Of a DNA stretch of 64,000 nt, positions 36,201 to 58,289 are shown in pieces. The position numbers and the translations under genes were made by a program. The notes beneath the pieces are model-generated. The model searched no databases. It was not told the origin of the DNA and worked only from the letters and a program-made list of their open reading frames with translations. The first letter of the stretch is position 1, and each line of letters begins with the position of its first letter. The stretch comes from Isoetes taiwanensis (lineage: Eukaryota; Streptophyta; Lycopodiopsida; Isoetales; Isoetaceae), in NCBI GenBank assembly GCA_021234155.1, contig JAJEKV010000518.1, positions 1 to 64,000 on the forward strand, read 5' to 3'.

Positions 36201-36235
36201 TTGGAATTCTGAAGACAAGTTGGAATAATTTTTAT

Positions 36236-36960: not shown

Positions 36961-36984
36961 GTATGGTACTGTGATAATGGCAAT

Positions 36985-37330: not shown

Positions 37331-37607
37331 GACATGAGTACCTATGAACTATGCAAGTCGCCTTTTATTTTCAATCACACCTATATTAGTCAAGCAAACA
37401 ATGACGAGTGAATCATCTATGATATGTATACATTAAGGATATAATAATAATATAAGCACTTATGATTTGTGTATCTCATTAAGGATATATATATAATATA
37501 AGCATAGTGAATATTCGATTTGATGTATAGAATGAAAGTACATGATAGAATCATACCAGTATGAAAGTACATGATACTTGTAAACGCCAATGATGGCGCT
37601 CTGAGCC

Positions 37608-37990
37608 CACCCCAATAATTCACATCAATAATTTTACTTCACTATAAAAACGGCCCATTAGGGCTAGAGGTCATTCATCTCCCATGGATTATTTGCCTTC
37701 TTCCTGCTCACCACATCGAGGCGATCAAGTGCTCAATGAGCCACTGATCTTGTTGGTTGCCTAGACAGCATATTCTTCTTGATCCCTACCGCGAAGAAAA
37801 GCTTTGGCGCTAAGATTCATTGCCCCGTCAATTCAGTGTTATGATCCATCTCATTTGGCTTCCCTGGCGCATGAGCTATGAGATATCGTGGATCACTACC
37901 ACTGATCCCGAAGATGAATGAATCACTGCTCAACATATAAGCACTTCACCATCTTATCTATGAATCATGTATGCATTTATATATTAAAGA
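37608..37990 (+). other. Duplicated small gene-like unit, copy 2 (TATA box plus ATG)
   Basis: Shares CCAATAATTCACATCAATAA, a TATA box (CTATAAAAAC near 37642) and CATTCATCTCCCATGG (ATG at 37684) with copy 1. Its ATG frame closes after about 26 codons (MDYLPSSCSPHRGDQV...). The two copies lie in tandem 620 bases apart and are moderately diverged. Confidence 0.4.
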
Positions 37991-38084
37991 TGTAAGCTGT
38001 TATATATGATCACAAATATAGTAATGTACAAGATCTTATGTATTAAGATGAAAGATATGTATTAGGAGTACAAGATCTCATATA

Positions 38085-39898
38085 TTAAGATGAACAATGT
38101 GCTATGTCTTTCCACATGTCTACAATATATTTTGAATTTGGACTGCTTTTCGGCCTCTTGCCATTGGCATCCCAAGCATAATGAATAGCATCTAAATTTT
38201 CGGCATCTTGAAGGATCGGAAGGATTAGGTCGCCAACGCTAGTCAAGCGCCTTTGTAGTCCCTCAAAAGAGAGGCTTCCACCACGATACAAAAATATGGC
38301 CAAAATATGTAGATTCCTCGATCAAGAAGCGACATTCTCCTCCAGATATCCTAACCAAGTGGTGTGTTATCATCTCCGGTGTCCTGACTAGAACAAACAT
38401 ACCCTTTGTCACATGTACGTGAGGATCAAACTCTTCAAGAGGTAACACCGGACGCCATCCGACGGGCCACAATAAGATGGTAAAGGTCGTGGTGACCAAG
38501 GCAGATATCGCCGACCTCTGGAACAAATGTTGTTTGTTCTAGAGAGCTTGTCTTGTTTGTGGCCAAAATGCATCATTTTGAGGACGCCCCGAGCAACATC
38601 CTCCAAAGAGATAAGAAGTCGTCCAATACTCAACACTTGCCGTGTATTGCCTTGCAAACAAGCTACTTTCTTGATTCTTACATATGTCCTTCCATAGGGA
38701 GATGTATTTGTTGATGCTATCCTTCAACCCCGAAGATCTTTCAATGTTGGTCTAGGAGGAATATTTTGTGGCACACCACTTGGTATCATTGGCTGACCAT
38801 GTTCATCCTCTTTCCACATTCTAACTCCCCGAGAATCTCTGGAAGCCACTCTTTTATGTGTAGGACGATTTTTGTATTGCATAACAGGCCAATCTCCCCG
38901 CCATCTTAAATTTGAAGAGCAATGGTTCAAGATGCCCAACCTGCGTTGGCCCTTATTAGGGATGAATCCCTTCACAAAAGCCTTCCAATTTGGAACTTCA
39001 TCAATAAAGTATGGAATTGAGATTTCGCATTGCACTCAATCTTTGAACAAGTAAAGTAGCTCGTAGTGTCAAAGCATCCGATGAACTCATCAAGGTTGAA
39101 AAATTTCCAAATAAAGCATCAATATCATCATGGGTGTGGCCAACCATCATAAAGCCCACTTGGATCTCATCAAAGACCTTAAGCCAAGTCAAATAAGATA
39201 AGTATGAAAAGACATACCTATTTTGTTTTGCCCTCGATGCATTATCAAGTTGCAAATAGAGATTTCGGGAGAGGGTTGAACACCTCGAATTCGTTGTAGT
39301 TGAAGCATTTGGCAATACTTCCGCCATAGAAGCAAGTTTGTTCTTCAAAGGATTGGTATCCTTGATGCTTGCATCCATTTGCAACTGCAGCTTACTTCCA
39401 CATAAGTCACCTATCTTGTCCTCTTGTACCAATTCCAAGTTATGCAATATCCTAGAAAGTGAACCAATATGGAAGTTTGAATCATCTTTCCATAAATCAA
39501 GTGAGAAATGACCATAGGCACGCACCACCATGCCCATGAGTTAGAGCTCCTGGCCAAACCGCTTCTTCTTATCACCTCTCCATACTGATTTTGTTAGATG
39601 ATGACTTCTAGGCACTAAAGTCTTAACCCCGATCCATCTTATCATGTATTATACATAGATGATTTTCTCGGAGACCGATGTGACAATGCTCTCCAATGCC
39701 AATATTGACTTCTCGCAAGAATGTCGCTTAGCATATGAGCCCGACGTTTGAATTGCAAGATTTCGTCTCTCTCTTGTATCTTTTTGTTTTTTTCCATTTT
39801 TGCTTAATTACCACGCAAATGTTGCATTTAGAGAAGGCTGTATTTTTTGCAATGCTAACATCCGGAAATTCTCTTTTCCATATACTATAAAAGAGTTT
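38085..39898 (-). pseudogene. C-terminal part of a DUF7869-like (probably transposase-derived) gene
   Basis: Minus-strand pieces in order: FPDVSIAKNTAFSKCNICVV (39728-39898); a segment with IIHDKMDR; LYLQLDNASRAKQNRYVFSY and QVGFMMVGHTHDDIDALFG (39001-39537); then NWKAFVKGFIPNKGQRRLG (38724-39035) and a C-terminal part at 38085-38727. Eukaryotic proteins of this family carry D(G)MDQ, QLDN(C)xxxNKNR and GHTHE/DDID blocks; the repeated acidic residues suggest an RNase H-like DDE catalytic fold, which is my inference. The gene lacks its N-terminal half here because the Gypsy element starts at 39899; that half continues at 50638. Several frame changes separate the blocks. Confidence 0.6.
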
Positions 39899-41613
39899 AG
39901 ACGACCCCTCAATATATACGACACCCATTAGGATAATATTGTGGACTTTCCCTCCCATGGCAACCAACTTGCCATGAGCAGGCTCTCCGGCCTATTTCGG
40001 CCATCTATGAAATGATGCCCCAAAAGAAGGACACAAAGGGGTCATTCGCCCACGCTTTCAATGGGACTCCTACCGCCGCTGAAGCATGAATACAAGGGTT
40101 AGTACACAAAGATAAATCATATATAAATAACCACCACTTAAGGGTGGCGATCCATCCAAATACCAATGGCATAGAATATGCATCTAAACCTAAGAAAACA
40201 CCCAAACCCCTGGTTCTACCCCGCCCAGACTCCAAAGGAGAGGGATCGACCTACTACCGGGCCTCAAGAGATCACAGACCGAAGTCTTGGCATGGCGCTG
40301 GCCGGCATAGAACATCGGCCAGGGGGTTGACCACTCCATCCGCCCCCCGTGCACACTTTGCGATGGGTCAATTCATTTTATGGCTTCGCCTTATAGCCTT
40401 CCCGAGACGCAGTTCAAGGTATCACCCTTGAGCCTACCTGTGTTCATGACGCGGGTCCGATGAGGCAGGCCTGGGAAGCGCCCCTTCCGTAATCGCAAAG
40501 GTTCCATGGGTGAGCTAGAGAATACGCCGTGATCAGCGCCCCCCCCGCATCCGCATTCACTTTACTCACCCTAAATCTACTCAAAGTGCATGGTGCCCCA
40601 TAATGGGTCACACCACTACACCTGTGGAGTGTCGGACTCCATACCCGCCCCTCTCCGCGGACTGGCCATCGTGCCTAGCCCATCAGAGGAGTCCTGTGAG
40701 CCTTGTATGTTCGCAAGGCAGACCCCACCCCCCCACTTCACCACTGTGTTCCTTGTCCGGTGCTAAGCCGCCCATAGCCGCCTATGACCCTGGGCTCTTG
40801 TACACGTGCCGCAATATTGGGAATTACTGTGGTTTTATCTAGGAACATACTAACGATATGAGTTCAGAGGTCTCTACCCCGCCTTTATTTCCCCCATTTC
40901 CGCAGAGTGATACCATACAAAGAACTATCAATCCATCCTTTTTAGGAACCAAACCTTTAATCGTAATATAAAGAGAACTTACCTTACAATCAAGGGTTAG
41001 TTCCTACCATTAAAACACGAGAGAAATGCATAACATCACAACAAGTGCCCAATGTGGCGCCACCCTAGAATTCACAACTAAACTACTACCAACCAGGTGT
41101 TCCTACTGACCCAAGTATCGTGGGTGCTTCCATAGTGCTGCATTTAAGGGTGGTAGCAATGCCTAGGGGTTGTTTAGTGATTTTGGTGAGGTCAAGAAAT
41201 TTTAACGGGGCTGCTCCTTAAAGCCAAGAATAGCCCTTGGGCACTCACCATGCTCCTTAGGCCAAAGAATTCCTAAGGCCAACCGCCTCCTTAGCTTCAG
41301 CCAGCCTCCTCTCCTCCATCTCCAGTCTCTTCCTAATTCGAATTGGGGCACAAAGCCCTAATTTGGGTGTCCAAAATGGAAACCATGCCTTGCCCAATCG
41401 ATTTGGGCCAAGTGGCACCCCTTGTTGGTGCTAATTAACTAATTTAGCTTAATTAGGGTAATTAGGCTATATACTTTATAATTATCCACAATGGATTTAT
41501 TAACATAGCTAAATAAAACCATTGTGGTCCACGCCACTTAGCCAATTACCCCTTATGTCCTAGTGACGTGTCCCTGCATGTATACGATACCGTATGAATG
41601 CCCGAACGCCACA
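39899..41613 (-). repeat. 3' LTR of the Gypsy-type element
   Basis: Matches 48923-50637 over its length, from GACACCC near the left edge to TACCGTATGAATG near the right edge. It is followed directly by the polypurine tract. Confidence 0.85.
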
Positions 41614-41639
41614 TTCTCCCCACCTTAAAAATGATGCCG

Positions 41640-44600
41640 CCCCCAAAGATCGGGATTCATGTTGTTGCAGGCAACACATCATGATCATCGCTTAGGAGTG
41701 TTAAAAGTGAACAAAGGAAAGTTTGTGGAAGTGTCACCGTTTCATCCGTGGTGACGAGCTCACACTCTATCTATTTTAGAAAGCATTCTTTCTATAGATC
41801 TGTGTAATCGATTATATATTAAAGACAGGTATAGATATAAAAAAAAAAAAAACTTCCATTTGTTGTTATATTATAATACAGAGTTATTAACCTCGCACTG
41901 ATTAATAGAAAGTCATTCTAATTAACTTTTGTGTGTATATGTATTATATTCTCCCTTCACTTTACAATTTCGTTTTCCTATTTTGGTACAATTTTAACAA
42001 CTCATATATTGCTATTGTGAGTGTTTAGATGCCTCGACATTTATAGTTACCCTTTAATAGAATTATATATTGTAAATCAGATATTCCATTTTGACCTATA
42101 TACGTTAACGTTATCTAAGTCTCGTTATTCCTTTAGGAGTTTGTGTAAGACATACATACTTATCCCCTTCTATTATATTTGATTATGTGTTTAATAACTT
42201 GCTGAGGACACATATTAATTCATTGGTTATGTTTGTACATTTACCAAACGTCCCGATATTCTTATATTTGAATTACTTATTTATTTTATTGTTATTTTCA
42301 TAAATTTATCACACATACAGTGCATGTGTACATACCGACGATACATTCAACGTAATTGGTAACCGCCTGGGCCGCTATCCCGGCAAAGGCTATGGCTATG
42401 CAATCGCCTTGTATCACGTATACGGTTTATGACTATGGTGTTCACGGCGAAGCATAGAAACCATGCGTGGTCCGGCCTCGAGCCTCGTTAGATGATGATA
42501 ATCGAGGGAGGTCCCTGACTTCTACTTGAAGTAGAAGTGTCGAATGTTGGGAATAAGGAGTGTTAAGATATCCCTAATTTGATGGATACCGAGAAAATTG
42601 GTATGACGATGTTTGGTATCTAAGTGAAATGCCGGACTTAAAAAATTATGAGGATTGATGTATGATGATCTAGGTTGATATTCAATGTAGAAGGAGACCG
42701 ATATAGCACCATATATCTGGTGGAGAAGTGGTTTATGATTATCTACTATAGACCATGTTAAGGAGGTACCATGCCAAGGTGGAAACCGGATTATAAGTAC
42801 CCAGCCTCGAGAGGGAAAACACTTTAAAAGTGTAGGTTTGATTCGTGGAACGGTAGAGAATAATGTTGTATGAGGATGTTGATCCATAAATTATGGATTA
42901 TAAAATTACACACATATTGTGTTTGGTAAAGAGATTGATGTTCCCGAGGTGTGAAACAAAGACGCAAGATTATAGACGACTAAGAAGACCATGAGGCACG
43001 GAATACACTTAATAACGCTGGTCAAATGCATGATCCTTATGTGGTGAAAATTAAAGAAATGGCCAGATCCTATGTCGACGGGGTATGTAGACGGATAAGA
43101 GATCGACAATAGTGTGGGACGTAGTTTTCCCACAAGGTGAAGAGAGCTGAGGTCGAACCGACGAATAAGGGTGAATAAGCATTCCGTGAAGATCGCTAGA
43201 ATGGAAGACTACAATTGCTAGCAAAAGGTGCAACCGCCTCAAAGCTACAAAGTATGTTGGAGCTCGCTAAGCTTATTCTATGAAGGAAAGTTGACGTTGA
43301 ACTAATGATACATTAGGAAGGCAAGTAATGCACCCGCACGACAAGTGGAAGACAAGAGGTGCTTGAAAGTTGTTGTAAACAACGCTTTCAAATATAGAGA
43401 GTTTGGAGCCAAGTTTGAGGACACCTTGAAGAGACCAAAGCCCGAATACTGAGAAGGGAGGCATCCAATGAACATCTCGCCAAGGAGGATGTGCTCGACT
43501 TGGTATCGTCGTGCATCCCGAGGAGTAGTTCCACGCTGGTAGATGTGTATTAGGACCATTTACTAGGAACATAGCTAGAAAAGATAGGGTATATACTAGA
43601 ACTTTTAGTTCATATATATGAATACTATGAGGTAATGAAGATAAGAATTCTATAGTAGACATCAAGTATGTCCACTAGGAACTTAGGGTGGCATGTGCCC
43701 CCATGGAATTTATGACTAGAGCGTGAGGACCAAGGCAACCTAAGGATAGAGAGTCTAGAAGGTGTGGTGTGAAATCCACAACATATATAGGAGAAGTTAA
43801 TCTAGGGCTACGCCAACTAATCATATATGAGTCAAGAGTTAGGGTTGGTGCACACATGTTACTATATCTCATAATAACAACGAGTGGTTTTGGGATGTTT
43901 GAAGGATTTAGTAGTATTACATACTACACTAGCGAGGATATCAAGGATGTCGATTGTGACATCCAGATGTATGTCATATTAAAAGATAATAGAATATTTA
44001 ACAAGGCTTAGGGAAATATTACTTGACAAGGTTTACGTATGAGCATGATGATATGCTTATATACTTAGATATTGGGTTAGGTATGCTTTACCAAGAGATA
44101 AGCATTCAAATTATCCGAATGGTTAGAGTTGATTATCTTAGATACGCCGCATAAGGAAGACGAGAAAAGTTTAAATGAGTGAGAATAGCTAGAGTAAGTC
44201 TAGCATATACCGGTGATGTTACGCTCGTAAACATCCCGAGGATGGTTGAAATCCAGATTAGAATAACCGATAATGAGAGCTTAACTACTCAAAGGTTCTA
44301 GATACCAATGTATTAGTTCAACGTTATAAGCTAAGAGCATTTATTTAAACTCCTAAGGGAATGAAAAGATATATAAGAATATTAAGGCCCCCTCGATGGA
44401 AGATAAGAAGGAGTAATGATGACTTTGGCGATTATACCCTTTAGGGTAACCAAGAAGAGGGCAAGACATAGGAATTCCAAGTCCCCGATAAAATCAAGAC
44501 GAGGTGTATTGATCGAATCGGTTAAGGTTATATAGACCAAGAGTCCATATAATCGAAGAGTTACCCTACACGCAGTGAACAATTCTAGGTACGTAAGTAG

Positions 44601-44860
44601 AAGCCGGAGGATCCGCTTCCTTCATGTGATAGACCCATTAGAGATTATGACTTCAAACTCTTAAGAGGGTAAGGAATTGATAATCATATGGCTGTTACTA
44701 ACGAAGATTGAAACATTGGATTTTCCTATTAGAAGACCAGGGGTTTTAGTGCCTCCGCCCATTATGAGGGAGCCAAAGACGACAACATTCAAAGGGATCA
44801 AAAGTTGAGGTTGACATGCTAACTTAAGATAAATAGGTAGGTGTGACAAAAACATGGCTT
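41640..44860 (-). other. Interior of the Gypsy-type element, 3' portion
   Basis: No long open frame. A minus-strand stretch around 42900-43240 has integrase-like blocks (GHFFNFHH and the HG...SIVSD-like context), scattered over frames. Nothing else is recognisable. Confidence 0.4.
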
Positions 44861-45125
44861 AAACGCTAAATTAATCAAGGAACCTTTAGAAAAGGCCTTG
44901 GACTGTGGTAGAAACCTTTGGAACTATGGCATAATCCCATGGGAAAATTATAGTTTATGTAATGGGTTAAAGTACCATAAGTTTAAATTCATCCCTTTTT
45001 AGGTCAACCCCTTAGGTTAAGATACTCCATGGTGGCGCATCTTTATTGGGTGACGGTCACTTTATTTATACATATACCATATAAATACATGGAACGCCAC
45101 ATTCACCCCTCTTAGAAAATAATGA
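44860..45125 (-). repeat. Related LTR edge plus second polypurine tract inside the Gypsy-type element
   Basis: At 45040-45150 the sequence repeats, in diverged form, the junction found at 41560-41660: an ATACCATATAAATACATGGA-like LTR end, GAACGCCACATTC, a polypurine tract on the minus strand (AGAGGGGTGAATG) and the following CAAAGATTGGGG word. The left limit of the LTR-like part is unclear. This suggests remains of an older related element within the interior. Confidence 0.5.
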
Positions 45126-48000
45126 TGTCCTCAAAGATTGGGGTTAGTTAAACAAATGACTGCTAATCTAAAATCGCAATAGAAGGAAGTATCCTTAAAC
45201 CTTCTTATGATAAGTATGTTAAATGCACCTTGGTCATTAGAGGAAAAATGAGATCACATTTTGTCCCATTAAGGGATGCTTAAAATGCCATGTCTTTTTT
45301 TTGAACTGGCCCAATAAGAGAAGAGCCCAAGATATCTCATTCCAAGATATGTGGAAAACAGAATTAATGCAACCGCAACTAACTTCAGTCAAGTATCATT
45401 TTTCATTATAACTTTTGATCCAACTCCCGATTTAAAAAACTTTTGTAGCAATGGATTCGCCTTTCACAAGATCTATCTAGTGATAACCCATTCATACATC
45501 TTTTACGATATAAATATATAAGAAATAAGCAAAAAATCATATTTTTTAAGGTTAACGCATATGACCATATTGAAATACATCATAACCATACATCATTGGA
45601 AAGATCGACAAACGCCGCAACATTTTGACAAGTGGATCAAAAAGTTATGGGGAAAACAACAACAATGAAGTTGTTGGTGCCGCATTAATTGCGCTAATAG
45701 AGGGTAGCCATTCCATTGGAGGATTCTTATGGGGATGAAATGAGATCTCAAATTTTTCTAATGGCTTAAACCGTTTCTATGCAGATCCATACATGGGCAA
45801 GTCACGCATCGCCATCGGGCGTGCACATGTGAATACATCAAATGTACAAGTCCAACGAGTTGGCCCCCCGCCCCATTTGGGAAGTAGGTGGTAGAAAATG
45901 CACATCATAAGAACTACAAAGGTTACATTTCAGCTAAGTTAGAGCAGAGCTCTAGCATTGTGGGATGAGGATATATGTTTGTTATGTACATAGCATGTAC
46001 ACATACGATAAACATGCTGGAGAGGTAATCTAGGTGGTGACACTAGGAGAGAAAGACGAAGCGCGATCCTAAAGCTACGGATTCCTGGCCGGAGATACGC
46101 TTCAAAATGTGCAAAGGATGATCAATCCGTTGCATGCTAGGGTATGATGTGGTAGTTGGCACTTGGAGTAAATGTCAACGGCCAATAGAATAAAGCTTAA
46201 GGTAGTGGGGTTGAGTAGTACAATAGTACAATTCCGTGATAGGTATCAAATAAGACCTACAACTAGTTTTCCCACATGATCCATACCGATCAAAAGTAGG
46301 TGACGCCATGGGTTACATGGATACAAGTCCGTGTTGTCTCAACATAGATAATTGTAGAAAGGCTCACAAAGTACAAGGCGAGCACCTTGTAATTCACGAT
46401 TTATACCAAGGCTCACCCACTCTTAGGCCATGACTATGGCTTAAATGCGACGCCAAGTCATTTGGAATGCCGTAACAAAGAAAGATGACATCATGACAGT
46501 AGAAATGTAATGAGTAACATTTCCGTGATGTAGGACAATGTTGGATTATAAACCCCAATGATAGGTAGGTTTACAATATAAGGGCCATATAATAGTGGCT
46601 TAGAAGGCACAAGATCTGCTAATCGGACACGTAAAGGAGTAATTGGATTGGTGACTCTACCGAATATAGATCACAATTAAAGGATGATTTGTATAATGAT
46701 GTGGCGCACGAAGGGCCGTGATACCGAAAATCGCCATAGACGAGAAAACATATTGAAGAAATAAAAGACCCCGATGCATGATATTTAGTAACTGATAGAA
46801 GGTTATTACCTAACATGAAGGGTGGTCATTGCTAATATGCAAAGGTAGACTTGCGGCTTGAAAGGCAACAAGAGCTGAAAAACTCCTTAAAGATTTGGTG
46901 CATGGCTTAGGGAAGAAGACTTCCATGTCCTAAGACAAGATGGTGAATTGAATTCACCAAGGACATTTTTAATAAATAGATAGATAGGTAGATAGCATTT
47001 ATATGTCATGCCACATTGGCAAAGGTCCACGAGGACATATGACGGACCCCGCAGACTTGAACACAAGATCTCTGGAATAGAGGAGGCCTACCTTGAGGGG
47101 TCTTTGAGTGGTACCGGCCCTTTGGGACATTCACATAACCCCTTGGAATAACGTGAAGTTCATTTGTGGAACTTAACGCCATTTGGGCACTAAAGGAATG
47201 GTTGGAAATACTTTGCCCCAACCATATTTGGGTACCCTAGAAGGAGGTGAGTAATCAACAATGGTTGGGTGGCATTGGTTTGTACGGGAGAACAACTCTA
47301 AAAGAGGGTAGACTGCTGTCACTTTGACAGGCGTGTGGTGCAGATAACTACCACTCACCATATATAGTTGTGGAAGTTTGGTACAAAAATGATACCAAGG
47401 TTTGTACCCAACATAAGGACTCATTACGACATGAGTATGCGCCATGATCTAGGGAAGTGATCCATAAAAGGAACAAGACCAATGAGAAGGAATATTGAAG
47501 GGTGGTAGGATCAAAGGAATCCAAACCGATGGTCTAGAGGTGTGCTGCATGGCAGTCCCTAGTCGGTTGGGCGACAAGGAGATCCTTTCTCTGGGAACTG
47601 AGACGAGTCAAGGTTTAGACACTAGAGAGAGGCAACGTTAATTAGAATTATGTTTATAAAGCATTACTTATATAACGTCGAATAAGGTCTAATATAAAGC
47701 ATATGAATGTAGTATGGATTGAATCATGGCAAGGGTCAAGAAACCGTGGTTATCAAGGCATCTACCAAAGGACAATAATAATTAAAGTTATGTATCGAGG
47801 AACGCCGATAACTGGACATTATTATCGTCGCCTAAAGAATATCCAAGGATATAACACATGCTGCTATTCTAGAGAGTTGCCCTGTCGTTAATTAAATTCC
47901 GGAATTAGTCCCACCAAGTGAGTTGATGTTATCATAACAAGTTGGCCGGACTTGCTAGATTACGTCGTGTCATTTGGTCGGTTTATTCCTAGGGGATACT
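45126..48000 (-). other. Interior of the Gypsy-type element, 5' portion
   Basis: Highly fragmented frames. A second integrase-like stretch on the minus strand lies around 46100-46300 (with LLAVDIYSKCQLP). The presence of two integrase-like patches separated by a PPT-like junction supports two superposed elements. Confidence 0.35.
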
Positions 48001-48030
48001 AGCTTTATATATGGTTAACAGTTATCCGGT

Positions 48031-48195
48031 TGACTATGGCAGAGAAAGGTCGACTCCCGTGGCCATGGCAAGAGTGCTTACTCCGGCGGCTATGGCGAGA
48101 GAGTTTGCCCCAAATGGGCTATGGCGAGAGAGCTTGCTCCGGGTGGCTATGGCGAGAGAGCTTGCTCCGGGCTATGGCGAGAGAGCTTGCCTCGG
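48031..48195 (+). repeat. Minisatellite, GGCTATGGCGAGAGAGCTTG units
   Basis: About six units of 25-29 bases with GGCTATGGCGAGAGAG(C/T)TTGC; the last three are nearly identical. It lies inside the Gypsy-type element near its 5' end. Confidence 0.85.
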
Positions 48196-48304
48196 TGAGT
48201 TGTCAGCCTCCACTTCGTGGGTTTACCAAAGGCACATAATGGCTCTAATTTTAAAATATAGATGCATTATAAATATTAGAAAAAGGGTTATATCCCTTCA
48301 AGAA

Positions 48305-48370
48305 AGAAGTTGGCTTATTGGTGAAGGTGTTGGTTTGGGTGCAGAAGGTCAGGGGTTCAAGACCCCATAG
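48305..48370 (+). mobile_element. tRNA-like SINE head, unit 1
   Basis: Box A-like TGGCTTATTGGT at 48311-48322 and box B GGTTCAAGACC at 48354-48364 are 43 bases apart, the spacing of an internal Pol III promoter. The T-arm stem (GGGGTTCAAGACCCC) is perfect. No full cloverleaf is apparent, so a tRNA-derived SINE head or tRNA relic is more likely than a gene. Confidence 0.4.
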
Positions 48371-48459
48371 TACCCTTTTATAGAAAAGTTGCTATGCAGA
48401 GAAATAGAGTACTATATGTGTATAAGAAATATGTGAAACACATATATTATATTCAAGAG

Positions 48460-48540
48460 AGAGTTTGGTGTGGTGGTAGGCACCTAGGTTTGGAGTTTAG
48501 AGGTCATGGGTTCAAATTTGGGTTGAGGCGCCATAAAATA
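48460..48540 (+). mobile_element. tRNA-like SINE head, unit 2
   Basis: Box A-like TGGTGTGGTGGTAGG at 48466-48480 and box B GGTTCAAATTT near 48509-48519 follow unit 1 by about 155 bases in the same orientation. The body after it is AT-rich. The two heads look like a dimeric SINE or two insertions. Confidence 0.4.
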
Positions 48541-48905
48541 TGTATATAATAAAGAAAGTAATAAAATCTTTTTATACGGCTGAAATATGCTTTTATACGG
48601 TCCGGCCGACAAAGATTATATCGCCGTTTTCTACCGCCTCACGGAGTCGATCAAAAGCAAGCGGCGCCCGAAAGTTGACTTTCGGGGCCCCTCCTTGACC
48701 ATTTTTCGCCAGCCTAACGACCGTCCCTAGGGTATTTGGGGTACGCCCGATCCAATGGAGCCATTTCCGCCTTTCATCCCAGCCTACCTACAAAGGTTAT
48801 AGCCCCTCCAAACTTGGGTCCTCCCAGCCCTAACTTCTTTAAACCTAACCGACGAAGCTACGAAGTTAGAGTTTGGCTGCTATGATTCCGGCCAACCGTA
48901 ATCAT

Positions 48906-48917
48906 GGCTCGATACCA
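48906..48917 (-). promoter_or_regulatory. Primer-binding site of the Gypsy-type element
   Basis: The minus strand reads TGGTATCGAGCC, close to the common plant site TGGTATCAGAGC complementary to the 3' end of initiator-Met tRNA, five bases inside the LTR edge. Confidence 0.7.
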
Positions 48918-48922
48918 CCGGG

Positions 48923-50637
48923 TGACGCCCCTCAATATATATGACACCCACCAGTATACATATTGTGGGGACTTTCCCCTCCCATGGCAACCAACTTGCC
49001 ATGAGCAGGCTCCTCCGCCTATTTCGGGCCATCTATGAAATGATGCCCAAAGAAGGACACAAAGGGGTCATTCGCCCACGCCTTCAATGGGACTCCTACG
49101 TCGGCGGAAGCATGAATACAAGGGTTAGCACACAAAGATAAATCATATATAAATAACCACCACGAAGGGTGGCGATCCATCCAAATACCAACGCATAGAA
49201 TATGCATCTAAACCTAAGAAAACACCCAAACCCCGTGTTCTACCCCTACTGCACTCGGTGAGGATCGACCGACTACCGGGCCTCAAGAGATCGCCAGACC
49301 GAAGTCTTGGCATGGCGCTATCGGCATAGAACATCGGCTAGGGTTGACCACTCCATCCGCCCCTCCCCGTGCACACTTTGCGGATGGGTCAATTCACGCT
49401 ATGGCTTCGCTATAGCCTTAGAGACGCGGGTTCAAGGTATCACCCTTTGAGCCTACTCCAGTTCATGACGCCCGGGTCCGATGAGGGTGGTCGGGGAAGC
49501 GCCCCTTCGTAATCCAAGTGGTTCCATGGGTGAGCTAGAGAATACGCGTGCCGCATCACCCCGACCCCGCATCCGTATCCGACTTACTCACCCTAAATCT
49601 ACTCAAAGTGCATGGTGCCCCATACGGGTCACACCACTACACCCGTGGAGTGTCCACCCATACCCGCCCTCTCCGGTGACCTGGCCATCAGGCCTAGCCC
49701 AATCGTAGGAGTCCCAGAGCCTTGTATGTTAGATGCGGGACCCCACCCCACTTCACCACTTTGTGTTCCTTGTCCGGTGCTAAGCCGGTCCCCATAGCGC
49801 CTATGACCGGTGGGCTCTTGTACACGTGCCGCAATATTGGGAATTCATGTGGTTTTATCTAGGAACATACTAACATTATATGAGTTCAATGGTCTCTACC
49901 ACCCTTATTTCCCCATTTCGAGTGATACCATACAAAGAACTATCAATCCATCCTTTTAGAAACCAAACCGTAATCGAATATAAAGAGAACTTACCTTTAC
50001 AATCAAGGGTTAGTTCCTACCATTAAAACACGAGAGAACGTATTTAACATCACAACAAGTGCCCAACAGTAGCTACCCTAGAATTCACAACTAAACTACT
50101 ACTAACGTTGGTTTTGGACCCGATTATCGTGGGGTGCTTCCATAGTGTCAGAGATTTAAGGGGGTGGTAGCAATGCAGCTAGGGGTTGTTTAGTGATTTT
50201 GGTGAGGTCAGCAACATCCTTGGGCGCCGGTTGCTCCTTAAGGCCAAAGAGGGATCCTTGGCGCCGGCTGCTCCTTAAGGCGCTCAGCAGTCCTTGGGGC
50301 CACCGCTTGCCTTGGGCCAGCAGCCTCCTCTCCTCCATCTCCAGCTGCTCTTAATTCGAATTAGGGCACAAAAGCCCTAATTTGGGTGTCCAAAATGGAA
50401 ACCATGCCTTGTCCAATCGATTTGGGCCAAGTGGCACCCCTTGTTGGTGCTAATTAACTAATTTAGCTTAATTAGGGTAATTAGGCTATATACTTTATAA
50501 TTATCCACAATGGATTTATTAACATAGCTAAATAAAACCATTGTGGTCGACGCCCACTTAGCCAATTACCCCTTATGTCCTAGTGACGTGTCCTGCATGC
50601 ATAATGCATACCGTATGAATGTTCGGAACGTCCTGCA
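48923..50637 (-). repeat. 5' LTR of the Gypsy-type element
   Basis: Pairs with 39899-41613. It begins TGACGCCCC and ends CCTGCA on the plus strand, and immediately abuts the N-terminal half of the interrupted gene. Confidence 0.85.
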
Positions 50638-51470
50638 GTTCAAGGCTACAGCTTGTTCCCGTAAGCTCTTCAACGACCGCCCAACTTCTTTATGTATAAG
50701 CTTCTTATTAAGAATGGAAGGAAGCTTATACATTTTTTCTTACATCATCTCTACCTCTTTTGCTCCTATGGGGAATACTTTCAAAGATTCTCCGAATGAA
50801 TCATCTGTCTAGCACACATTCTAAGTGGCGATTGTAGTGGATCTAGGCTTTTAGAGCCAAGATACCATGTTCAGCTACCTTTGCACCTCGCTTCATATCT
50901 CTTTCTCCAATTGTAAAATGTTGATCGACCGATACCTAAAGCCATGCGCCACCCAAATGCAGACAGAATTCCATCCCCTTGAGCACTATCATGTCCTCTC
51001 CTTCTCCCTGTAAGTCACACTCAAGACGCTAAAAAAAAAAAAAAAAAAAAAAGGTAACCCTTGCATTGTATGGTTGGGATAAAAATTCTTTTCTTAATTC
51101 ACGCGACTTGATGCTTGGTAAGTTTCTTGTTGCAAGTATTTTGCAAAAGCAGCCTTGACTTCATGAACTTATTGATTGAAGTTGTGGAGCATAGCCTTTC
51201 CTCTTTGCTTTTCCCCTTGGGCTCTCTTAAAATCCTATGTGTGTAAGTATACTTCCTCTTTCGTTTGAATTGAGCCTGAATGTTGTCCTCAAATGATTCA
51301 AGCTCAGTACTCGAAGCTTGCGGTGATGTTGTGAGACGTCCTTCCATCCAAAGAAGATCACATCGCTATTTTCCCACCGAACAAGTTCATTCTCACTTGG
51401 CCTTTCTCGCACAAGCATGACATCCTCGGATCCTCTTTCATTAGTTCTCGAAGCACCTTTCCAACACAAA
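50638..51470 (-). pseudogene. N-terminal part of the DUF7869-like gene, upstream of the Gypsy insertion
   Basis: Minus-strand pieces: ESFEDNIQAQFKRKRKYTY (51099-51347), GIGRSTFYNWRKRYEA (about 50887-50943; helix-turn-helix-like, as in the N-terminal part of the family), SLDPLQSPLRMCARQMIHSE (about 50770-50850) and LIHKEVGRSLKSLREQAVAL (50638-50705). The last segment is what should precede the KREFPDVSIAKNTAFSKC block at 39.8 kb, so the two pieces are one gene split by the LTR element. A 22-base poly(A) run (51031-51052, plus strand) interrupts the frame. Function is unproven; the family is likely transposase-derived. Confidence 0.5.
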
Positions 51471-51619
51471 GGCCAACCTTTGTGTCTCCTAAGAATTCAT
51501 CATCAACAAAGATCCCGAGGATCACCGAATAGAATTATAGCTTCGTGATATTTAGTTCTAGTACAAGAATGGAGAATGTGGCAATCGCATTTTTAGAGTT
51601 CTCGTTTTGAGTAACTAGG

Positions 51620-51830
51620 TGGTGGCTCATCATCATCTCGGGCCTGGTATTCTCGCGAAAGCAAACCGAGTAGCTAAATCCATCGATGGATCAATCTCTT
51701 CATCTCGCATCCGACACGCCTCCACGCATTCTATGTATGAGTTGTATGAGGTAGGTGTCCCCATGTCCGATCTTGGTGTCTCATCATGGGTCGCATCAAT
51801 GCCATGAAAACGTGATATCGCCGAGGCCAT
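51620..51830 (-). pseudogene. Coding-like minus-strand piece upstream of the DUF7869-like gene
   Basis: Open frame with FHGIDATHDETPRSDMGTPT, CRMRDEEIDPSMDLATRFAF and ARIPGP, continuing in another frame as DDDEPPPSYSKREL. Acidic and probably disordered. It may be the N-terminal part of the same gene or a separate one. Confidence 0.3.
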
Positions 51831-52390
51831 TCGATGAATGTGCCCACGTACCCCGCAATATTATCTACACCCGCATTATGCAATCGAAGCACGTGAGTTG
51901 GCACCACGGCCTCCAGAACTTGCACAACCACGCTCGCGTGCATCCACATCCTTCCCATGGATGCTACTTCTATTCACCAATGACCTCGCCAACAACAACA
52001 TTGTCATCAAGATAAGTTCACCAAGTTCTCCGTGTTGCTCATTGGTCGAGATGAAGGAGAACTGGGTGATGCCGATGTAGAGGAACCATCGGGCAGGTTG
52101 GGGTTTCCGTGACGATGATGATCTGGCGTGAAGCATCCGGACGATTCTCACGCCTCGCCTAGGCCATTCGATAAAATGCCTACCAAGATCAAAGAACATT
52201 ATCCGCTACCGCACATGGAATGGGAAGCACATGGGATGGAATTATGGCTTCAAGAACCTCCACGACGACGTTCTTAAAGTAGTCAATGTTCTTTCCATGT
52301 AGGTGCCTCTATGCGTTCATGCCCCTAACAACAACCACGCCCCCACAGAGGAAGTTCAAGGTCCTTTTTCCCGCAAGCATGCAATGACAC
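51829..52390 (-). repeat. Diverged tandem duplication with coding character on the minus strand
   Basis: Two units (about 51829-52160 and 52161-52390) share GGCCATTCGAT, CTCCA(G/C)..TTGCACAACCACG-like and TTCCCATG words. On the minus strand both encode a similar peptide: VVVQVLEAVVPTHVLRLHNA with GYVGTFIEWPRRYHVF in one, and VVVEVLEAIIPSHVL with GRHFIEWPRRG in the other. Shared protein-level pattern means the unit duplicated while coding. The repeat protein is not recognised. Confidence 0.45.
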
Positions 52391-52442
52391 ACACATTGTT
52401 AGAAACCCCGCGGAAATGACCATAAAATATTCATTAAACAGT

Positions 52443-52605
52443 AAATGGCGCTGGTGCGCCATTTGTTCAAATAGCGCTAGCCGCCGCCATTTGTTACAAA
52501 ATAAGCAGGCCCGGGCCTTATTTGAGTAAATAGCGGCTGCGCTATTTGAGGCAAATGGCGCTACGCTTATTTGATCTAATGGCGCATCACGCCATTTGGC
52601 TTTCT
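52443..52605. repeat. Hairpin array 1: tandem palindromes of AAATGGCG...CGCCATTT type
   Basis: Six consecutive imperfect palindromes of ~20-25 bases, each opening AAAT(G/A)(G/A)CG-like and closing CG(C)(C/T)(A/T)ATTT-like, with short spacers. The first is nearly perfect (AAATGGCGC, 4-base loop, GCGCCATTT). Arms and loops vary between units while arm complementarity is mostly kept. One unit is AAATAAGCAGGCCCGGGCCT TATTT. Confidence 0.8.
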
Positions 52606-52639
52606 TAGGAACAAAATAGGAAAACTTAGGACAGCTAGA

Positions 52640-52830
52640 TTACACAAGATGACATTACTACAGATTACTACATATAACTACACAGGATACAAACAGACAT
52701 CAAGATTACAGATTACACATTAGTAGAGATTACTACGCATCACTACAAGATTATTACAGATTGTTACAGACATCGCAGATTACAACGGACTACGACATTA
52801 TTTCCTGGATTGTTACAGTTACTACAGACA
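52640..52830 (+). repeat. ACAGATTACTA-type degenerate repeat
   Basis: About a dozen irregular copies of (A)CAGATTAC(TA) in 190 bases just after hairpin array 1. Confidence 0.75.
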
Positions 52831-52939
52831 CTCTGTGGTAGAAACATTATTCTCGCACTTATAGGAGAAATTGCCGACAGCTAAACTAAAAATGTAAGTC
52901 ACTAACCTTGGGATCATTGTAGATCGAGAATCGCCATTG

Positions 52940-53165
52940 AAAGAAGGGAAGAGCCTTGAATCAAGTAGGCGCCTTCAAAATAAAGGAAGCGCCGCAATCA
53001 AATGAAGAAGCTACCGCTATCAAATGAAGAAGTGCTCGCGAACCAACTAAAGCACTCGCGAATCAAGGTAGCGCCGCTATGAAATGAAGAAGCCACGCTA
53101 ACCAAGTGAAGCGCTCGCAACCAATCAAGCACCTCAGAATCAAGATAGCGCCCAAAGAAGCTTTC
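52940..53165 (+). repeat. Degenerate repeat, AAATGAAGAAG / GAATCAAG / GCGCC words
   Basis: Repeated words (TC)AAATGAAGAAG, GCGAATCAAG and (A)GCGCC alternate about every 30-40 bases. Frames through it on the minus strand are spurious. Confidence 0.65.
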
Positions 53166-53404
53166 TTTGACAAAGAAACACACTCAAATAACTCTATCGA
53201 GGAACCAATGCCTAAGGCGCAATAGACGCCCGACGAGCCGCCTTTGGCCGCCAAGTCCTCTCAGCGCAAGTACCGCGAATGTTGAAGCGAGGACGGGGAG
53301 CATAAAATCGCGAACCGCTAATAATGAGGATCTAAAGCGCCTTCATTTACCATATCCGTATCTCGAGATTTTATAGACGGCTTTCATTGTGGACCGCACA
53401 ATAT

Positions 53405-53640
53405 ATATCTAAAAGTGGCGGGCAATTCAAATTTTAAAATTCGGTTATGGACGGTAGGGAATTCAAATTTTAGAATTCAATTAAGGACGGGCGGAAATTC
53501 AAATTCAAATTTTAAAATTCAAGTGATTGTGACGGGCGGAAGGCCGGGCGGGGCGGAAGTGACGGGCGGGACAAATCTGTCGTGCCATTAATTTCGACGG
53601 GTTTATTTTTCTCTTCATTTCATTTCTCTCATTTCATTTC
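53405..53640 (+). promoter_or_regulatory. AATTCAAATTTTAAAATT repeats followed by pyrimidine-rich leader (possible promoter)
   Basis: Three copies of AATTCAAATTTTA(A/G)AATTC alternate with GACGGGCGG words (53420-53560). From 53610 the plus strand becomes pyrimidine-rich (TTCATTTCTCTCATTTCATT and, to 53760, CTCTCTAG repeats), as in plant Y-patch promoters and 5' leaders. A coding region follows from 54.57 kb. Promoter function is inferred from position only. Confidence 0.3.
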
Positions 53641-54055
53641 ATCGCCACCTATCGTTGCCTTCCTCGCCAGCCGCTTCAGCGCCCTTCCGCCCCTTCTCTC
53701 TCTAGCCTTTAGCTTTTCTCTCTAGCGCCTTTGTGTTTCTCTCTAGTGCCTTCGAAAGTAGCTTGTTGATCCGAGCTCCGGGGAAAAAAGGTGGAGTAGA
53801 ATTTCTACGGTCCCCTATGACGTTCCTCAGACGGTCGCATATATCGATGGCCTCGTGTTCGGGTTAGTTAAAATGACTTGTTTTTAGTCGTTTTCGGGGT
53901 CATGGGTATATAAATAGCGCCGATTGCCGTTTCATGTAGCCGGTGTCTAGGATAGTGAGTTTTGTGGTTCCGTCTCGAAAAGAAATGTACAGCCGGGCGC
54001 CATTTTTTGGGATGTGTTAGTTTTGTAGTTTGTTTAGATCAGATGTAGTGTAATG

Positions 54056-54535
54056 TAAATGGCGCCGCTGCGCCATTTCCATGCAAATGGCGTCATGCGC
54101 CATTTCTCAATCGCCGCCCTCTCCCTCAGCTTTTGCCAACAATCCAGAAAGTCTGAGGGCCTTATTATCCACTCGCCGAGAATGCCTCCTTCGTGGCCGA
54201 GAATAGGGAGTGTACACTCTGGATTGTTGGCTGGCCGGGGGATTCCCGATTCGCCCCGTCGAGAAATGGCCTTGATGATTTGAGTTTGAATGTCGCCACA
54301 TCTGCGCCATTTGCTTGAAACGGCGCCATTATGCATTTCTCGACCGCAAATGACGCAGCGGCCATTTCGATGCAAATGACGCCATTGCGCCATTTCGACC
54401 GGGCAAATGAAGCGAAATGACGCCATTTGCATCGAAATGGCGCCACCAAGGTCATTTGCCGTCGAGAAATGGCGATGGCGGCGCCTATTTCCCAAGCAAA
54501 TGGCTAGATGGCTTCATTTCCATGCAAATGGCATA
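54056..54535. repeat. Hairpin array 2: AAATGGCG...CGCCATTT palindromes
   Basis: At least eight palindromic units of the same type, in two sub-clusters (54056-54115 and 54300-54535). Examples are AAATGGCGCC..CTGCGCCATTT and AAATGACGCCATTGCGCCAT TT. Spacers are often C(C/G)ATGC or CGACCG. The array lies between the pyrimidine-rich leader and the first coding stretch, so it may sit in a 5' UTR or intron. Confidence 0.8.
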
Positions 54536-54565
54536 GTGGGTTGGGTTTGGGTTTCAATGATTTGA

Positions 54566-55023
54566 ATGTTGATTTGTTGTTTTCTTTGTGCGCCTTCGTT
54601 GTCCAAGGCCCAAAACGTTGTGACGGAGAAGACCGTGGTCATGGCTGGAAGGCCATGGTGCATGGAAATTGTCAGGGCAATTCCCTTGGAGGAAGGGGTC
54701 GACCCCACAAAGGGGGACAAGAAGAGAGAACTTTGCCTCCTCACAAAGTCAGAAGTGGTGAACAAGACGTTGTGATGCAGCTTGGCATCATTGTCAACAT
54801 GCGGGAGGTGAAAAAGCATGGAAGATTAGACTTCCTTGGTTGCACAGTGGAGGATCCCGTGAATTGCACCATTGATCTGTACTGCATGGACTGGCCGTTT
54901 TACGATCCACAGATGATGGAATCCAACATCAAGGACCGTACGGTCGCCAAAAAAAAAAAGGGCCGTTGCCTTCCTCTAAAAGTAGAGGCAAATGCTATTA
55001 ATGGCACGGGCCGAGCTACTTAG
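54566..55023 (+). pseudogene. First coding part of an unrecognised plus-strand gene
   Basis: Frame 1 (54566-54775) reads AQNVVTEKTVVMAGRPWCME, RAIPLEEGVDPTKGDKKREL and CLLTKSEVVNKTL; the sequence then continues in another frame as LGIIVNMREVKKHGRLDFLG, CTVEDPVNCTIDLYCMDWPF and YDPQMMESNIKDRT. Both have natural composition and one apparent frame change separates them. No family is recognised. The position between two hairpin arrays suggests they belong to one element or gene. Confidence 0.45.
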
Positions 55024-55115
55024 AGGATTTGGCATTCTCAACAGCCTATGGACGATCAAAGAACTCAGGTCACATATTGTCGAGCCAAGACCTCTTGTAA
55101 TATGCCTCGCTTCTA

Positions 55116-55409
55116 ATGGACAAAGACTTGGCTTCGACAGGAGATTTCAAGGAAAAAGCTAAGCCAAGCCTTAGGCAAGCCAAGCCAAGGGAAGAAAAAG
55201 CCAAACCAAGGGAAGTCCAAATGGAAGGGACAGAGCATGAGGAAGATAATCACAAGAAAGACGAGGAAAATCCCAAGTCTCCTCCCAAGTCAGCTCCCAA
55301 ATCTCCTCCTACCAGGACACCTATCGGTTCTCCTATCAAGTCCCTGGATAAACAGGATTCAGAGAGAACCATTAGTGATACTAAATCCTCCCCACATCTG
55401 GAGAGGTAA
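55116..55409 (+). pseudogene. Disordered charged/proline segment of the same gene
   Basis: 97-codon open frame: KEKAKPSLRQAKPREEKAKP, then an acidic part (HEEDNHKKDEENPK) and Ser/Pro repeats (SPPKSAPKSPPTRTPIGSP). Clearly low-complexity, likely an exposed linker. Starts with ATG but probably continues from upstream. Confidence 0.45.
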
Positions 55410-55426
55410 GGCGCAAGATCGACGGG

Positions 55427-55760
55427 TTGGTAGCATTCCGCCTAAAAAGGAAGAGGGAAACAAAGAAGGAGATGAGGGTCGGAAAGCAGAAGAAAATGGA
55501 AAGTTTGGAGGTGCCTTCGGAACTGAAGATGGACTGTGATGCCGAGGAGGAGTTGGCAGAAGAAACTCTAAAAAAAATACAGCAGCACGGTCACATGTTT
55601 CCTCTAGGTGTGACATATGTAAGAAAAATATCCATCTGGGATATGGAAGAGGCACCTCCTAACATGACAAAGACGAAGTTGTAAATCTTGAACATGTTAG
55701 GAAACTGCGGCAAGTCATTTGTCAAGATCCCCATCCGCCTTCACGCGGCAGATGTGGTGC
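55427..55760 (+). pseudogene. Basic and acidic segment of the same gene
   Basis: Frame 55427-55684 encodes FRLKRKRETKKEMRVGKQKK (nuclear-localisation-like), then SELKMDCDAEEELAEETLKK and HGHMFPLGVTYVRKISIWDM; just downstream, past the stop, GNCGKSFVKIPIRLHAADVV follows in a different frame. The basic cluster and acidic helix suggest a nuclear protein. No domain match known to me. Confidence 0.4.
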
Positions 55761-56124
55761 CCTTTGATCTAGATACAAAGCGGCTAGTACCCCGGTCTTG
55801 CAAATGACCGGCTGGTATGAGGTTCTACATTATTAATGGCAACCATTCTCGTCTCGGCCCGCTTTCATTTCGTGTGTCGGTTGGGGATGTAAGATGCGAA
55901 TAGAACTCGTAAAGATTTACATTTATAGAATGTGCGAGTTCTTTTCGGAGCATTGAGTGACTTGGACCTTCTTCACCAAAGGTGGATGTGACATCGTGAG
56001 CTGTGACAAGAGCGAAGGAACCCTACGCAGATCGGATACACCACCGCTGCAGGGCAATAATGTGAGGCGGCAAGCCAAACACCTGCCAGAAAAAGGCCAA
56101 TCAAGAAGTTTAATTTATCACAAG

Positions 56125-56205
56125 GTATGTACCATCAGTATGAGCCAAATGTCGCCCGCCGCGCCATTTGAGGTCAAATGGCTAGCCGCACCATTTGACA
56201 ACGCT
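56125..56205. repeat. Hairpin array 3, inside a putative intron
   Basis: Two palindromes (AAATGTCGC...GCGCCATTT and AAATGGCTAG...CACCATTT, about 56151-56200) follow a strong splice donor (CAAG|GTATGT, GT at 56125). Coding character resumes near 56215. So the repeats appear to lie in an intron of the plus-strand gene. Confidence 0.6.
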
Positions 56206-56214
56206 TTGCCGCAT

Positions 56215-57000
56215 TCAAGCTCTAACATATTTGGTTTGCCTTTCAAAGATTACCTTGAAATGGTTGACAAGATTCTCAAGGGAAAGCATACCAAGGATGT
56301 CAATGTGTTCGCTTTCATGCCGACGACATTTACGCCTCTTTTCGCCAAATGTGGAATAAATGGAAAAAGGGGTTGAAAGATAACAAGGGCCAACAAATGG
56401 CCAATTGGGCAAAAGGATAAGGACTATTTTAGCGAGAACTACCTCCGATGCATGAGAGGCCTAGATTATGAAGATTGCGTAACCGCCCTCCGTGAAGCCA
56501 TCGAGGGGACATTTATGTTAAGGTCAAGACGATTATAAGGGTGATAATTTTTTCAAGACGAGAGCACGTAACTTGAGGATTCTTGCCTACATGAAGAAGG
56601 AGATTCTCAACTACATCCATGATGAACTTGGAATCAAGTACGTAAAGTTCGAGGACTTGAGAAAGGTGTCCGAGGGATTCCTGCACTCAACCCTCCTATC
56701 GTGGGGGTGGTGCATAATAAGTGGTCTCCGACGCAAGATCCTGAAAGAGGGGGCCCATGGTAATGTGCCCTTCATTAGGCAGATCCATCCGTAAGCTTTA
56801 AAGCCCGAGGCCGAGGACGACCTCAAAAGATTTTATGTGGAGGCTTTCTAGTGGTGGGATTGTCCAGATCCGATCATGTTGTTCGCCAAAGATGATCTGT
56901 TTGGATGCGAGGCAAATTACCCGATTTGGGATCCCGCCACTCGCCAAATTCTTTGATGCTGCTTCTAAGATGACAGACATCGGATAATATGTTTTGCTAA
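56215..57000 (+). pseudogene. C-terminal coding pieces of the unrecognised plus-strand gene
   Basis: Successive frames encode FGLPFKDYLEMVDKILKGKH, TKDVNVFAFMPTTFTPLFAK, ENYLRCMRGLDYEDCVTALR, MKKEILNYIHDELGIKYVKF, EDLRKVSEGFLHSTLL and PIMLFAKDDLFGCEANYPIW followed by DPATRQIL. They have consistent natural composition but change frame several times. I do not recognise the protein. Whether it is a transposon protein or a host gene is open; the hairpin arrays favour a mobile element. Confidence 0.4.
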
Positions 57001-58080
57001 GCCGAACATACGAAGTCTCTTCTCGCAATGCCCCGGAGAGACTAGAATCCGATCTAGAGTTTACTTAGGCATGTGTACTAAGAGGAAAGTGGGTGGGCAC
57101 TGTGTGGTGGCATAAAAGAGCCAACAGTGTGGTTCTAGCCACCGTAATCTCAGCCCAAACACACCGATGAACACCGATATCAGGTTTTATGGTGAACATC
57201 CCCGAAAGCACCTCAAGTTCCTAAGACCCATAAAGATGCAAGAAAGTGAGCCGTAGAATCTGGCTAACAAGCCCCGCCGAGGGACAAAAGTTCAAATACG
57301 GTTATAAGGTATGGAAGGGGAATACTTGGTTCACAAGGTGTTGGTCCCGCTATAACAAAGATACCTTGTCGATAAGCTCTTCCCTCCAAGTAACTTTGTT
57401 CGACTTTTTTCCGGTGGGGCTTTTTGCTAGGCATCATTGCGCTTAAAAAGTAGTAGTGTGGCCTATGAGCATGATGGAAAAAAGATCCAATGTATGCTAG
57501 GGATTCTTGGAAGAATTGACAACGCCATTAATCCCTTTGCTTGATCCAGCATGACCATGGCCTCTCGTCGAAGTTTTGACACCGCCAAGGCTTACTCTGT
57601 GAGAGACATCACATGGTGGTGGAGGAGAGACATCACATGGTGGAGGAGAGGGGTCACAGGCCAGGCTGGTGCGGGGAGAGGCCACAGGATCCAAAGAAAA
57701 AGTGGTACAAGACATGATTCAAGCAGATTGACCAAGTAAGATTAACGCGGATGATATTGATAAAGCAAATGATAAGGTTTTGGTGAGGAATATTGAAAAC
57801 CGATTTGCATATCATACTTGTATATAAGATTTACTGTGGTATTGATAATTACTGCATCTTGATTAATCTTTTGAATACGATGACACATAATGATCTTAAT
57901 GTATTTGCCCCTTTTGTATATCTTACTTGTAAAGCAAATAAGCCAAAGAAATGTGGCTTTTGCAATATGAATATATTGTAAATGCATCAAGGCGGGGCTT
58001 ATTTGTTTGCTTTTGTCCGTATTGTCCTTATGATTCACTTCAAATGCAGTGACTTTATTGCTTTTTTTCCACAATTTTTA
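57000..58080. other. No recognisable gene beyond short frames
   Basis: Possible 3' portion of the plus-strand gene (57246-57446 frame with FKYGYKVWKGNTWFTRC), then an AT-rich stretch with short frames only. Confidence 0.35.
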
Positions 58081-58082
58081 TT

Positions 58083-58160
58083 CAAATGGCGCAACCAGGT
58101 TGTTTCGCCCGACGATTTCCGCCCCATTTCGTGTCAAATAGAGCGGTTTTCAGGCTAATC
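58083..58160. repeat. Hairpin set 4, degraded AAATGGCG palindromes
   Basis: AAATGGCGC...CCCCATTTCG spans a degenerate palindrome, followed by AAATAGAGCGG and a GCATTTTAAGTAAATAG remnant. It is the last occurrence of the motif to the right; none was noticed outside 52.4-58.2 kb. Confidence 0.5.
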
Positions 58161-58289
58161 CTTGTGCATTTTAAGTAAATAGCTGGATTTGATTCTTTGA
58201 ATGTGTGAAAACAACTAACAATTTCATTTCGAGTTAAAATGGAATCACTAAATTTCCAACTTTAATGAAACTCGCTTATAACGCTTTTT

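Follow-up and report, generated by a model that had tools for sequence, protein, structure and literature searches.

The 64,000-nucleotide stretch of the Isoetes taiwanensis genome analyzed here over its full length (the window; contig JAJEKV010000518.1 of assembly GCA_021234155.1) carries arrays of short palindromes that belong to a large, multicopy DNA transposon with terminal inverted repeats, one whole copy of which is found in the window (Table 1). The element carries two divergent genes, one on the minus strand that codes for a transposase-like protein with a DUF7869 domain and an accessory one on the plus strand, and represents a family of transposons whose transposase-like gene has DUF7869. 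From left to right, the layout consists of the left end, the transposase-like gene, array 1, a gap, array 2, accessory exon 1, array 3, exon 2, and the right end. Array 4, where present, lies between exon 2 and the right end.

The repeated palindromes are genuine and not a product of chance. We defined a unit as a palindrome with at most two mismatches over the 16 arm positions of AAATGGCG...CGCCATTT. Fourteen units were found at positions 52400-58200 and none in the remainder of the window, while shuffling of this block (40 order-1 Markov shuffles) gave a mean of 0.025 and a maximum of 1. When up to four mismatches were allowed, the block had 26 (4.2 expected per shuffled block) and the remaining sequence of the window 31, so the weaker units are not to be trusted singly. 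The initial annotation, made from the sequence alone, had described four palindrome sets confined to this block. Sets 1 to 3 hold, with the 14 units. In the window, the palindromes of the fourth all have 4 or 5 mismatches, and this set is credible only because relatives (E10, C1030, L033, and L035) have units with 1 or 2 mismatches at that place. As for the confinement, it is true of the window and not of the genome. The genome-wide search for the exact palindrome pattern (0- to 14-nt gap; 1,658,258,908 bases in 1110 contigs) recovered 3016 sites, versus a single one for the reversed control. Nor, as far as 50 listed sites of the 3016 show, are these sites evenly spread without a link to the genes found here. 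The 50 are located in the first contigs only. They form 12 places or clusters (in C9, C16, C17, C26 [three], C28, C33 [two], C14, C30, and C24), and all 12 are in or near a copy of the element, as judged by protein, end, or whole-element matches. The place in C14 is tied to the element through one end only, and for C24 the link is a right end at a distance of 9 kb, the interior being unread.

Ten loci of 10 kb each, all containing palindrome clusters, were compared and had sequence in common on both sides of the clusters. A one-sided terminus common to the loci was found first, and its inverted partner was then located in the window at 36182. Both ends recur in the genome. The left-end and right-end patterns (up to 3 mismatches) had 211 and 567 matches, respectively, and the reversed control of each had none. 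Identical 4-bp flanks were present in 12 of the 13 elements in which both ends were read, namely ATAA (window), TATT (E10), CATA (C907 copy), and, in nine of ten further end pairs, AAGA, TTGT, ATAA, TAAT, TAGG, CTAT, TATA, TAAG, and CATG. All 12 duplications are 4 bp long and AT-leaning, some of them with G or C. The proposal of a DNA transposon was thus borne out, its ends being fixed and flanked by a target-site duplication. The block at 52.4-58.2 kb, which had been taken as the mobile unit, is only a part of it, since the element ends at 36182 and 58277. Of 69 left ends, 40 have a right end as partner at no more than 40 kb, and in 17 of these pairs the distance is about 11.0-11.6 kb; left ends and partners were taken from the listed matches, and this list favors contigs with a partner. 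The usual length of the element is about 11.3 kb, and three other full-length copies, colinear with that of the window, measure 11,202, 11,303, and 11,466 bp (the last one is E10, i.e., L010 plus L015). Identity between the window and C907 copies is 82-90% over the aligned stretches. The half of the window copy that contains the accessory gene gave 50 matches (40 scored of 441 candidates), the whole-length ones, self excluded, being 83-87% identical.

An insert nested in the transposase-like gene accounts for the greater length of the window copy compared with its relatives. The long direct repeats of this insert (39900-41600 and 48924-50621) are 86.4% identical, and the transposase-like protein match picks up again across it (query residues 148 and 150). 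A boundary placed at 50637 was dropped, as this is the point where the insert interrupts the gene. A Helitron, suggested by the hairpin-like terminus of the right end, was likewise discarded given the inverted repeats and target duplications. Just beyond the right duplication, on the minus strand (58755-60686), there are decayed frames resembling those of a long interspersed nuclear element, with matches to RVT_1 (E = 5e-11) and to an endonuclease (E = 4e-7). At 3592-4833 on the minus strand, there is a long stretch of overlapping open frames of simple composition, where both GC and AT skew are strong.

Table 1. Coordinates of the transposon copy and its features in the window
Feature	Position	Strand	Remarks
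Whole transposon copy	36182..58277	+	22,096 bp including the nested 10.7-kb insert; ends and flanks read
Left target-site duplication	36178..36181	.	ATAA; flank read
Right target-site duplication	58278..58281	.	ATAA; flank read
Left terminal inverted repeat	36182..36206	+	AAGCAGTGTTTCATTAAAGTTGGAA; end read
Right terminal inverted repeat	58253..58277	-	Reads AAGCGAGTTTCATTAAAGTTGGAAA on the minus strand
Transposase-like gene, 3' part	38544..39892	-	DUF7869; tblastn
Nested insert	39900..50621	.	Splits the transposase-like gene; long terminal repeat retrotransposon-like by long direct repeats
Transposase-like gene, 5' part	50638..52386	-	N-terminal and helix-turn-helix (HTH)-like region, decayed; tblastn 50638-51098 and 51515-52386
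Palindrome array 1	52443..52605	.	Upstream of the transposase-like gene; 4 units, at 52443-52597
Palindrome array 2	54056..54535	.	Upstream of the accessory gene; 8 units, at 54057-54489
Accessory gene, exon 1	54635..56092	+	Decayed; tblastn with the exon-1 proteins of L033, L034, and L023
Palindrome array 3	56147..56196	.	Putative accessory-gene intron; 2 units
Accessory gene, exon 2	56251..57782	+	Decayed; methyltransferase-like C-terminal region; tblastn
Palindrome array 4	58083..58160	.	Decayed; beyond accessory exon 2 (3' flank), close to the right end

The position of the arrays is conserved. The four full-length copies are colinear, with arrays 1 to 3 placed alike in all of them and array 4 present in two (E10 and C1030). 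In the three uninterrupted copies, arrays 1, 2, and 3 are found at 5.4-5.8, 7.0-7.4, and 9.0-9.3 kb, respectively, and array 4 (E10 and C1030) at 10.8-11.1 kb. As the initial annotation had proposed, one set lies in the leader of an unrecognized plus-strand gene (array 2, accessory gene) and another one in a probable intron (array 3). Over 23 loci, none of the 245 units overlaps a coding match by 8 bp or more, coding matches amounting to 70,730 of 175,742 bp. The geometry is rigid, with 189 of the 245 units being exactly 22 bp long, i.e., with a 6-nt gap between the 8-mers. The unit can be described as a 22-bp dyad in which 9-bp half-sites (AAATGGCGC/GCGCCATTT) flank a 4-bp core, and 363 exact half-sites have a partner with up to two mismatches.

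The units are kept between diverged copies whose surrounding noncoding DNA no longer aligns. When the array-2 stretches (300-600 bp) of L033, L034, and L008 were compared by blastn (E of 0.01), the only matches were 22-29 bp long and covered the units, and the exon-1 proteins of L034 and L033 are 44% identical. The core varies with the copy group. In one group it is AGCT or AGGT, another has CATG, and that of L034 is mostly CGCG. The spacing of the units is regular, 27-28, 59, or 69 bp, which argues for tandem duplication. In the window, the array stretch 54256-54480 could not be aligned with the C907 relative, while both flanks could. These patterns show what appears to be a turnover of the arrays by tandem repeat formation. 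Another possible origin is a single palindrome acquired by the ancestral element and since then duplicated in tandem without selection, and the regular spacing and group-specific cores do show duplication and homogenization. However, neutral spread does not predict constant arms where the flanking noncoding DNA of diverged copies is unaligned, nor arrays that hold their places (arrays 1 to 3) in all four full-length copies, and we consider this origin very unlikely. The observed/expected CpG ratio was 1.37-1.66 in the units and 0.48-0.85 elsewhere (three elements), a high value that is due to the motif itself and is at most compatible with low methylation.

The palindromic nature of the units could also reflect selection on a fold, as hairpins in RNA or cruciform DNA, or self-copying mini-palindromes. 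Covariation was analyzed in 84 distinct 22-mers picked by their outer AAAT/ATTT, which leaves only five inner arm pairs as those tested. In these pairs, 107 changes were one-sided, 5 were compensated, and 4 were two-sided and uncompensated. From the 107 one-sided changes versus 5 compensated ones, it follows that the main target of selection is the DNA sequence of a dyad site and not its fold. The two core pairs were paired above expectation (48/84 versus 27.6 and 35/84 versus 29.7), a point in favor of hairpins, but it is the sequence and the spacing that are fixed, and the window had no Rfam match at the gathering cutoff. Hairpins or self-copying palindromes are therefore highly improbable. 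The internal pairing pointed out in the initial annotation is real, and its cause is the near constancy of the arms rather than compensated changes. Of the explanations offered there, selection on the fold fails, while a site for a dimeric protein is favored by the one-sided changes, whose lack of compensation speaks against the fold only.

One candidate for such a protein is the product of the minus-strand gene, which extends from about 52.4 to 38.5 kb. It has a DUF7869 domain (PF25273; E = 2e-29 at 39004-39540) and, in the relative L011, a match to HTH_23 (E = 2e-4) under the Pfam cutoff. The units might bind this transposase (HTH-like plus DUF7869) for the assembly of the transposition complex and for promoter autoregulation. 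The element does encode an HTH-like/DUF7869 protein, array 1 is located directly upstream of its gene, dyad sites would fit an HTH dimer, and one locus (L013) has, over the 10 kb retrieved, units and transposase matches but nothing matching the accessory gene. On the other hand, the HTH matches are all under the Pfam cutoffs, and arrays 2 to 4 are in or beside the accessory gene. Transposase sites of the CACTA/Spm type sit subterminally at both ends. Here, the first 5.3 kb from the left end contain no unit in any of the four full-length copies, so it is unlikely that the arrays are transposase end-sites, as had been proposed in the initial annotation (subterminal palindromes recognized by the transposase). 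Altogether, we regard binding by the transposase as rather unlikely.

Some additional observations concern this gene. DUF7869 is abundant in the genome, all 150 scored matches (from 9902 first-look candidates) passing the cutoff, and the open frames that contain some of them reach 987 amino acids. The best four matches (L029 to L032) differ, on reading, from the protein of the element and may belong to other transposon families. Toward its N terminus, the transposase-like gene (L027:3269-4072) has one domain in two copies; this domain had no Pfam match at the cutoff and resembles one of plant En/Spm-like proteins. The term DUF7869 was not found in the open-licence literature searched. Between the divergent genes (53421-53540), there are AATTCAAATTTTAAAATTC repeats with GGGCGG-like spacers that are possibly part of the promoter region. 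L014 holds a gene coding for a pentatricopeptide repeat protein.

A second possibility is that the units are hijacked sites for a host transcription factor (e.g., a YY1-like zinc finger or an E2F-like protein), acting as promoter and intron enhancer. The mammalian YY1 and E2F motifs suggest these two candidates. The presence of units upstream of both genes and in the putative intron would suit such a role, and the half-site includes GCCAT, similar to the CCATnTT bound by AtYY1 (PMC10146089). Yet the unit does not conserve the final T of CCATnTT, and a zinc-finger monomer does not account for the 22-bp geometry. Besides, among the 50 listed sites, all in or near elements, there was no set of host genes. 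A host factor thus seems unlikely.

The accessory gene provides the remaining candidate. A 383-amino-acid query from one copy gave 111 scored matches genome-wide, of which at least 30, including partial ones, are free of stops. A profile of exon 2 matched the N6/N4 DNA methyltransferases (PF01555; hhalign 90.3%, P = 1.5e-6) over 74 columns around the S-adenosylmethionine (AdoMet) motif, the comparison set being 11 proteins, ten from phages plus YhdJ of E. coli. Controls remained at or below 0.7% (40 column shuffles) and at 0.1% (reversed). The single-sequence Pfam methyltransferase match was weak (E = 0.11). Because LDARQ or LDTRT is read at the place expected for the catalytic DPPY (by eye, as the profile alignment stops short of that place), this methyltransferase-like region is probably not an active enzyme. 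A ParB domain acting on parS-like arrays had first been suspected from an NGNHSVxAAQLV stretch of the protein, and ParB-methylase fusions are described in phages and mobile elements (PMC5512222). This idea was rejected after hhalign comparisons with 7 and 10 ParB-type proteins stayed below 1%, a test of limited power given the shallow query alignment (effective number of sequences, Neff, 1.6). An origin of the accessory protein in phages or prokaryotes was also dropped, as tblastn gave no match in phages. Neither in viral contigs nor in genome contigs was a match to it confirmed, within searches that reach close relatives only.

Taking all this together, we propose, with about an even chance of being right, that the units are binding sites for a dimer of a self-regulatory protein encoded by the element, most likely the accessory one, which would keep these regions unsilenced and drive both genes. 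A dimer of the accessory protein would bind the 22-bp dyad sites, the bound arrays in front of the two genes and within the putative intron would stay active and free of silencing, and in this state they would drive the transposase-like and accessory genes. By analogy, the accessory protein would play a role like that of VANC, the antisilencing protein of VANDAL transposons, and of TnpA in Spm, for which the odds seem to us evenly balanced; whether it would demethylate DNA or block methylation is less certain still. A more specific version is tentative and distinctly less probable than that, namely an antisilencing system evolved independently in a lycophyte transposon that is not related to VANDAL or Spm, in which an accessory protein derived from, or similar to, a methyltransferase without the catalytic motif binds the 22-bp arrays in front of the two genes, within its own intron, and in its 3' flank, and shields them from methylation.

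Several observations weigh against the binding of the arrays by the accessory protein, or weaken the data on which it is built. The protein had no Pfam match at the cutoff, no recognized DNA-binding domain, and no significant match in PHROGs or PDB. Two AlphaFold models were uninformative, with mean predicted local distance difference test (pLDDT) values of 36 and 35. When the profile was compared with the 5 longer phage methyltransferases alone, the match fell to 25% (P = 8e-4). At the locus L013 mentioned above, units and transposase matches occur and the 10 kb fetched hold no accessory match. Thirty-five exact half-sites have no partner. The open frame of exon 1 continues into array-3 units in several copies and the exon-1 tblastn queries were ended where the similarity of diverged copies stops, so we infer, rather than read, that array 3 is intronic. 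Array 4 of the window is, taken alone, not above chance, and it is missing from the C907 copy. The copies share a common ancestry, and hence their units are not independent; closer copies (C1030 and L024) align across the whole upstream stretch. Many copies are decayed, that of the window among them, and one of the ten further end pairs (L052/L053) lacks a clean duplication. Finally, the motifs bound by VANC are not called palindromic in the account given in PMC5735166.

A transposon-encoded regulator with its own arrays of sites is a known kind of system. If the proposed role is true, an unrelated lineage in a seed-free vascular plant would have a VANC-like layout, which would suggest that motif arrays placed in front of the two genes and within an intron are a convergent solution, and one motif in diverged copy groups with hundreds of ends would provide a natural series for studying the coevolution of protein and site. 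Among transposons, Sola2 may be similar, being described with short terminal repeats and with target duplications that are 4 bp long and mostly AT-rich, and differs in that its description does not mention a divergent two-gene layout or arrays of sites (PMC3627910). Bacterial and phage N6/N4 DNA methyltransferases (PF01555) are like the C-terminal part of the accessory protein in the region of the AdoMet motif and, as read by eye, unlike it in the DPPY place. The open-licence PMC literature searched did not bring up the element, the palindromic motif that it carries, or the accessory protein.

CACTA elements have CACTA termini and a 3-bp target duplication. En/Spm of maize, a member of this group, is, like the element, a DNA transposon with two products and with clusters of protein sites, whereas here the termini are AAGC..., the duplication is 4 bp, and the internal arrays are absent near the left end. 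VANDAL elements are of the Mutator type and generate 9-bp duplications, in contrast to the 4-bp duplications, DUF7869 transposase-like gene, and 22-bp palindrome found here, and the accessory exons match no Pfam family at the cutoff. Self-caused loss of silencing is described for few systems, VANC/VANDAL, TnpA/Spm, and MURA/MuDR, and the activation of Spm by TnpA correlates with demethylation (PMC10398659). The VANDAL-encoded VANC binds its motif, and DNA methylation is lost across the element; the targets are present at high density in introns and upstream regions, have been spread by tandem repeats, and differ between families (PMC5735166). It is to VANDAL21 and VANC of Arabidopsis (PMC5735166, PMC10398659) that the Isoetes element is comparable in its dense noncoding motif, the location of this motif in introns (a putative one here) and upstream regions, its tandem turnover, its divergence between related families, and the presence of an accessory gene besides the transposase.

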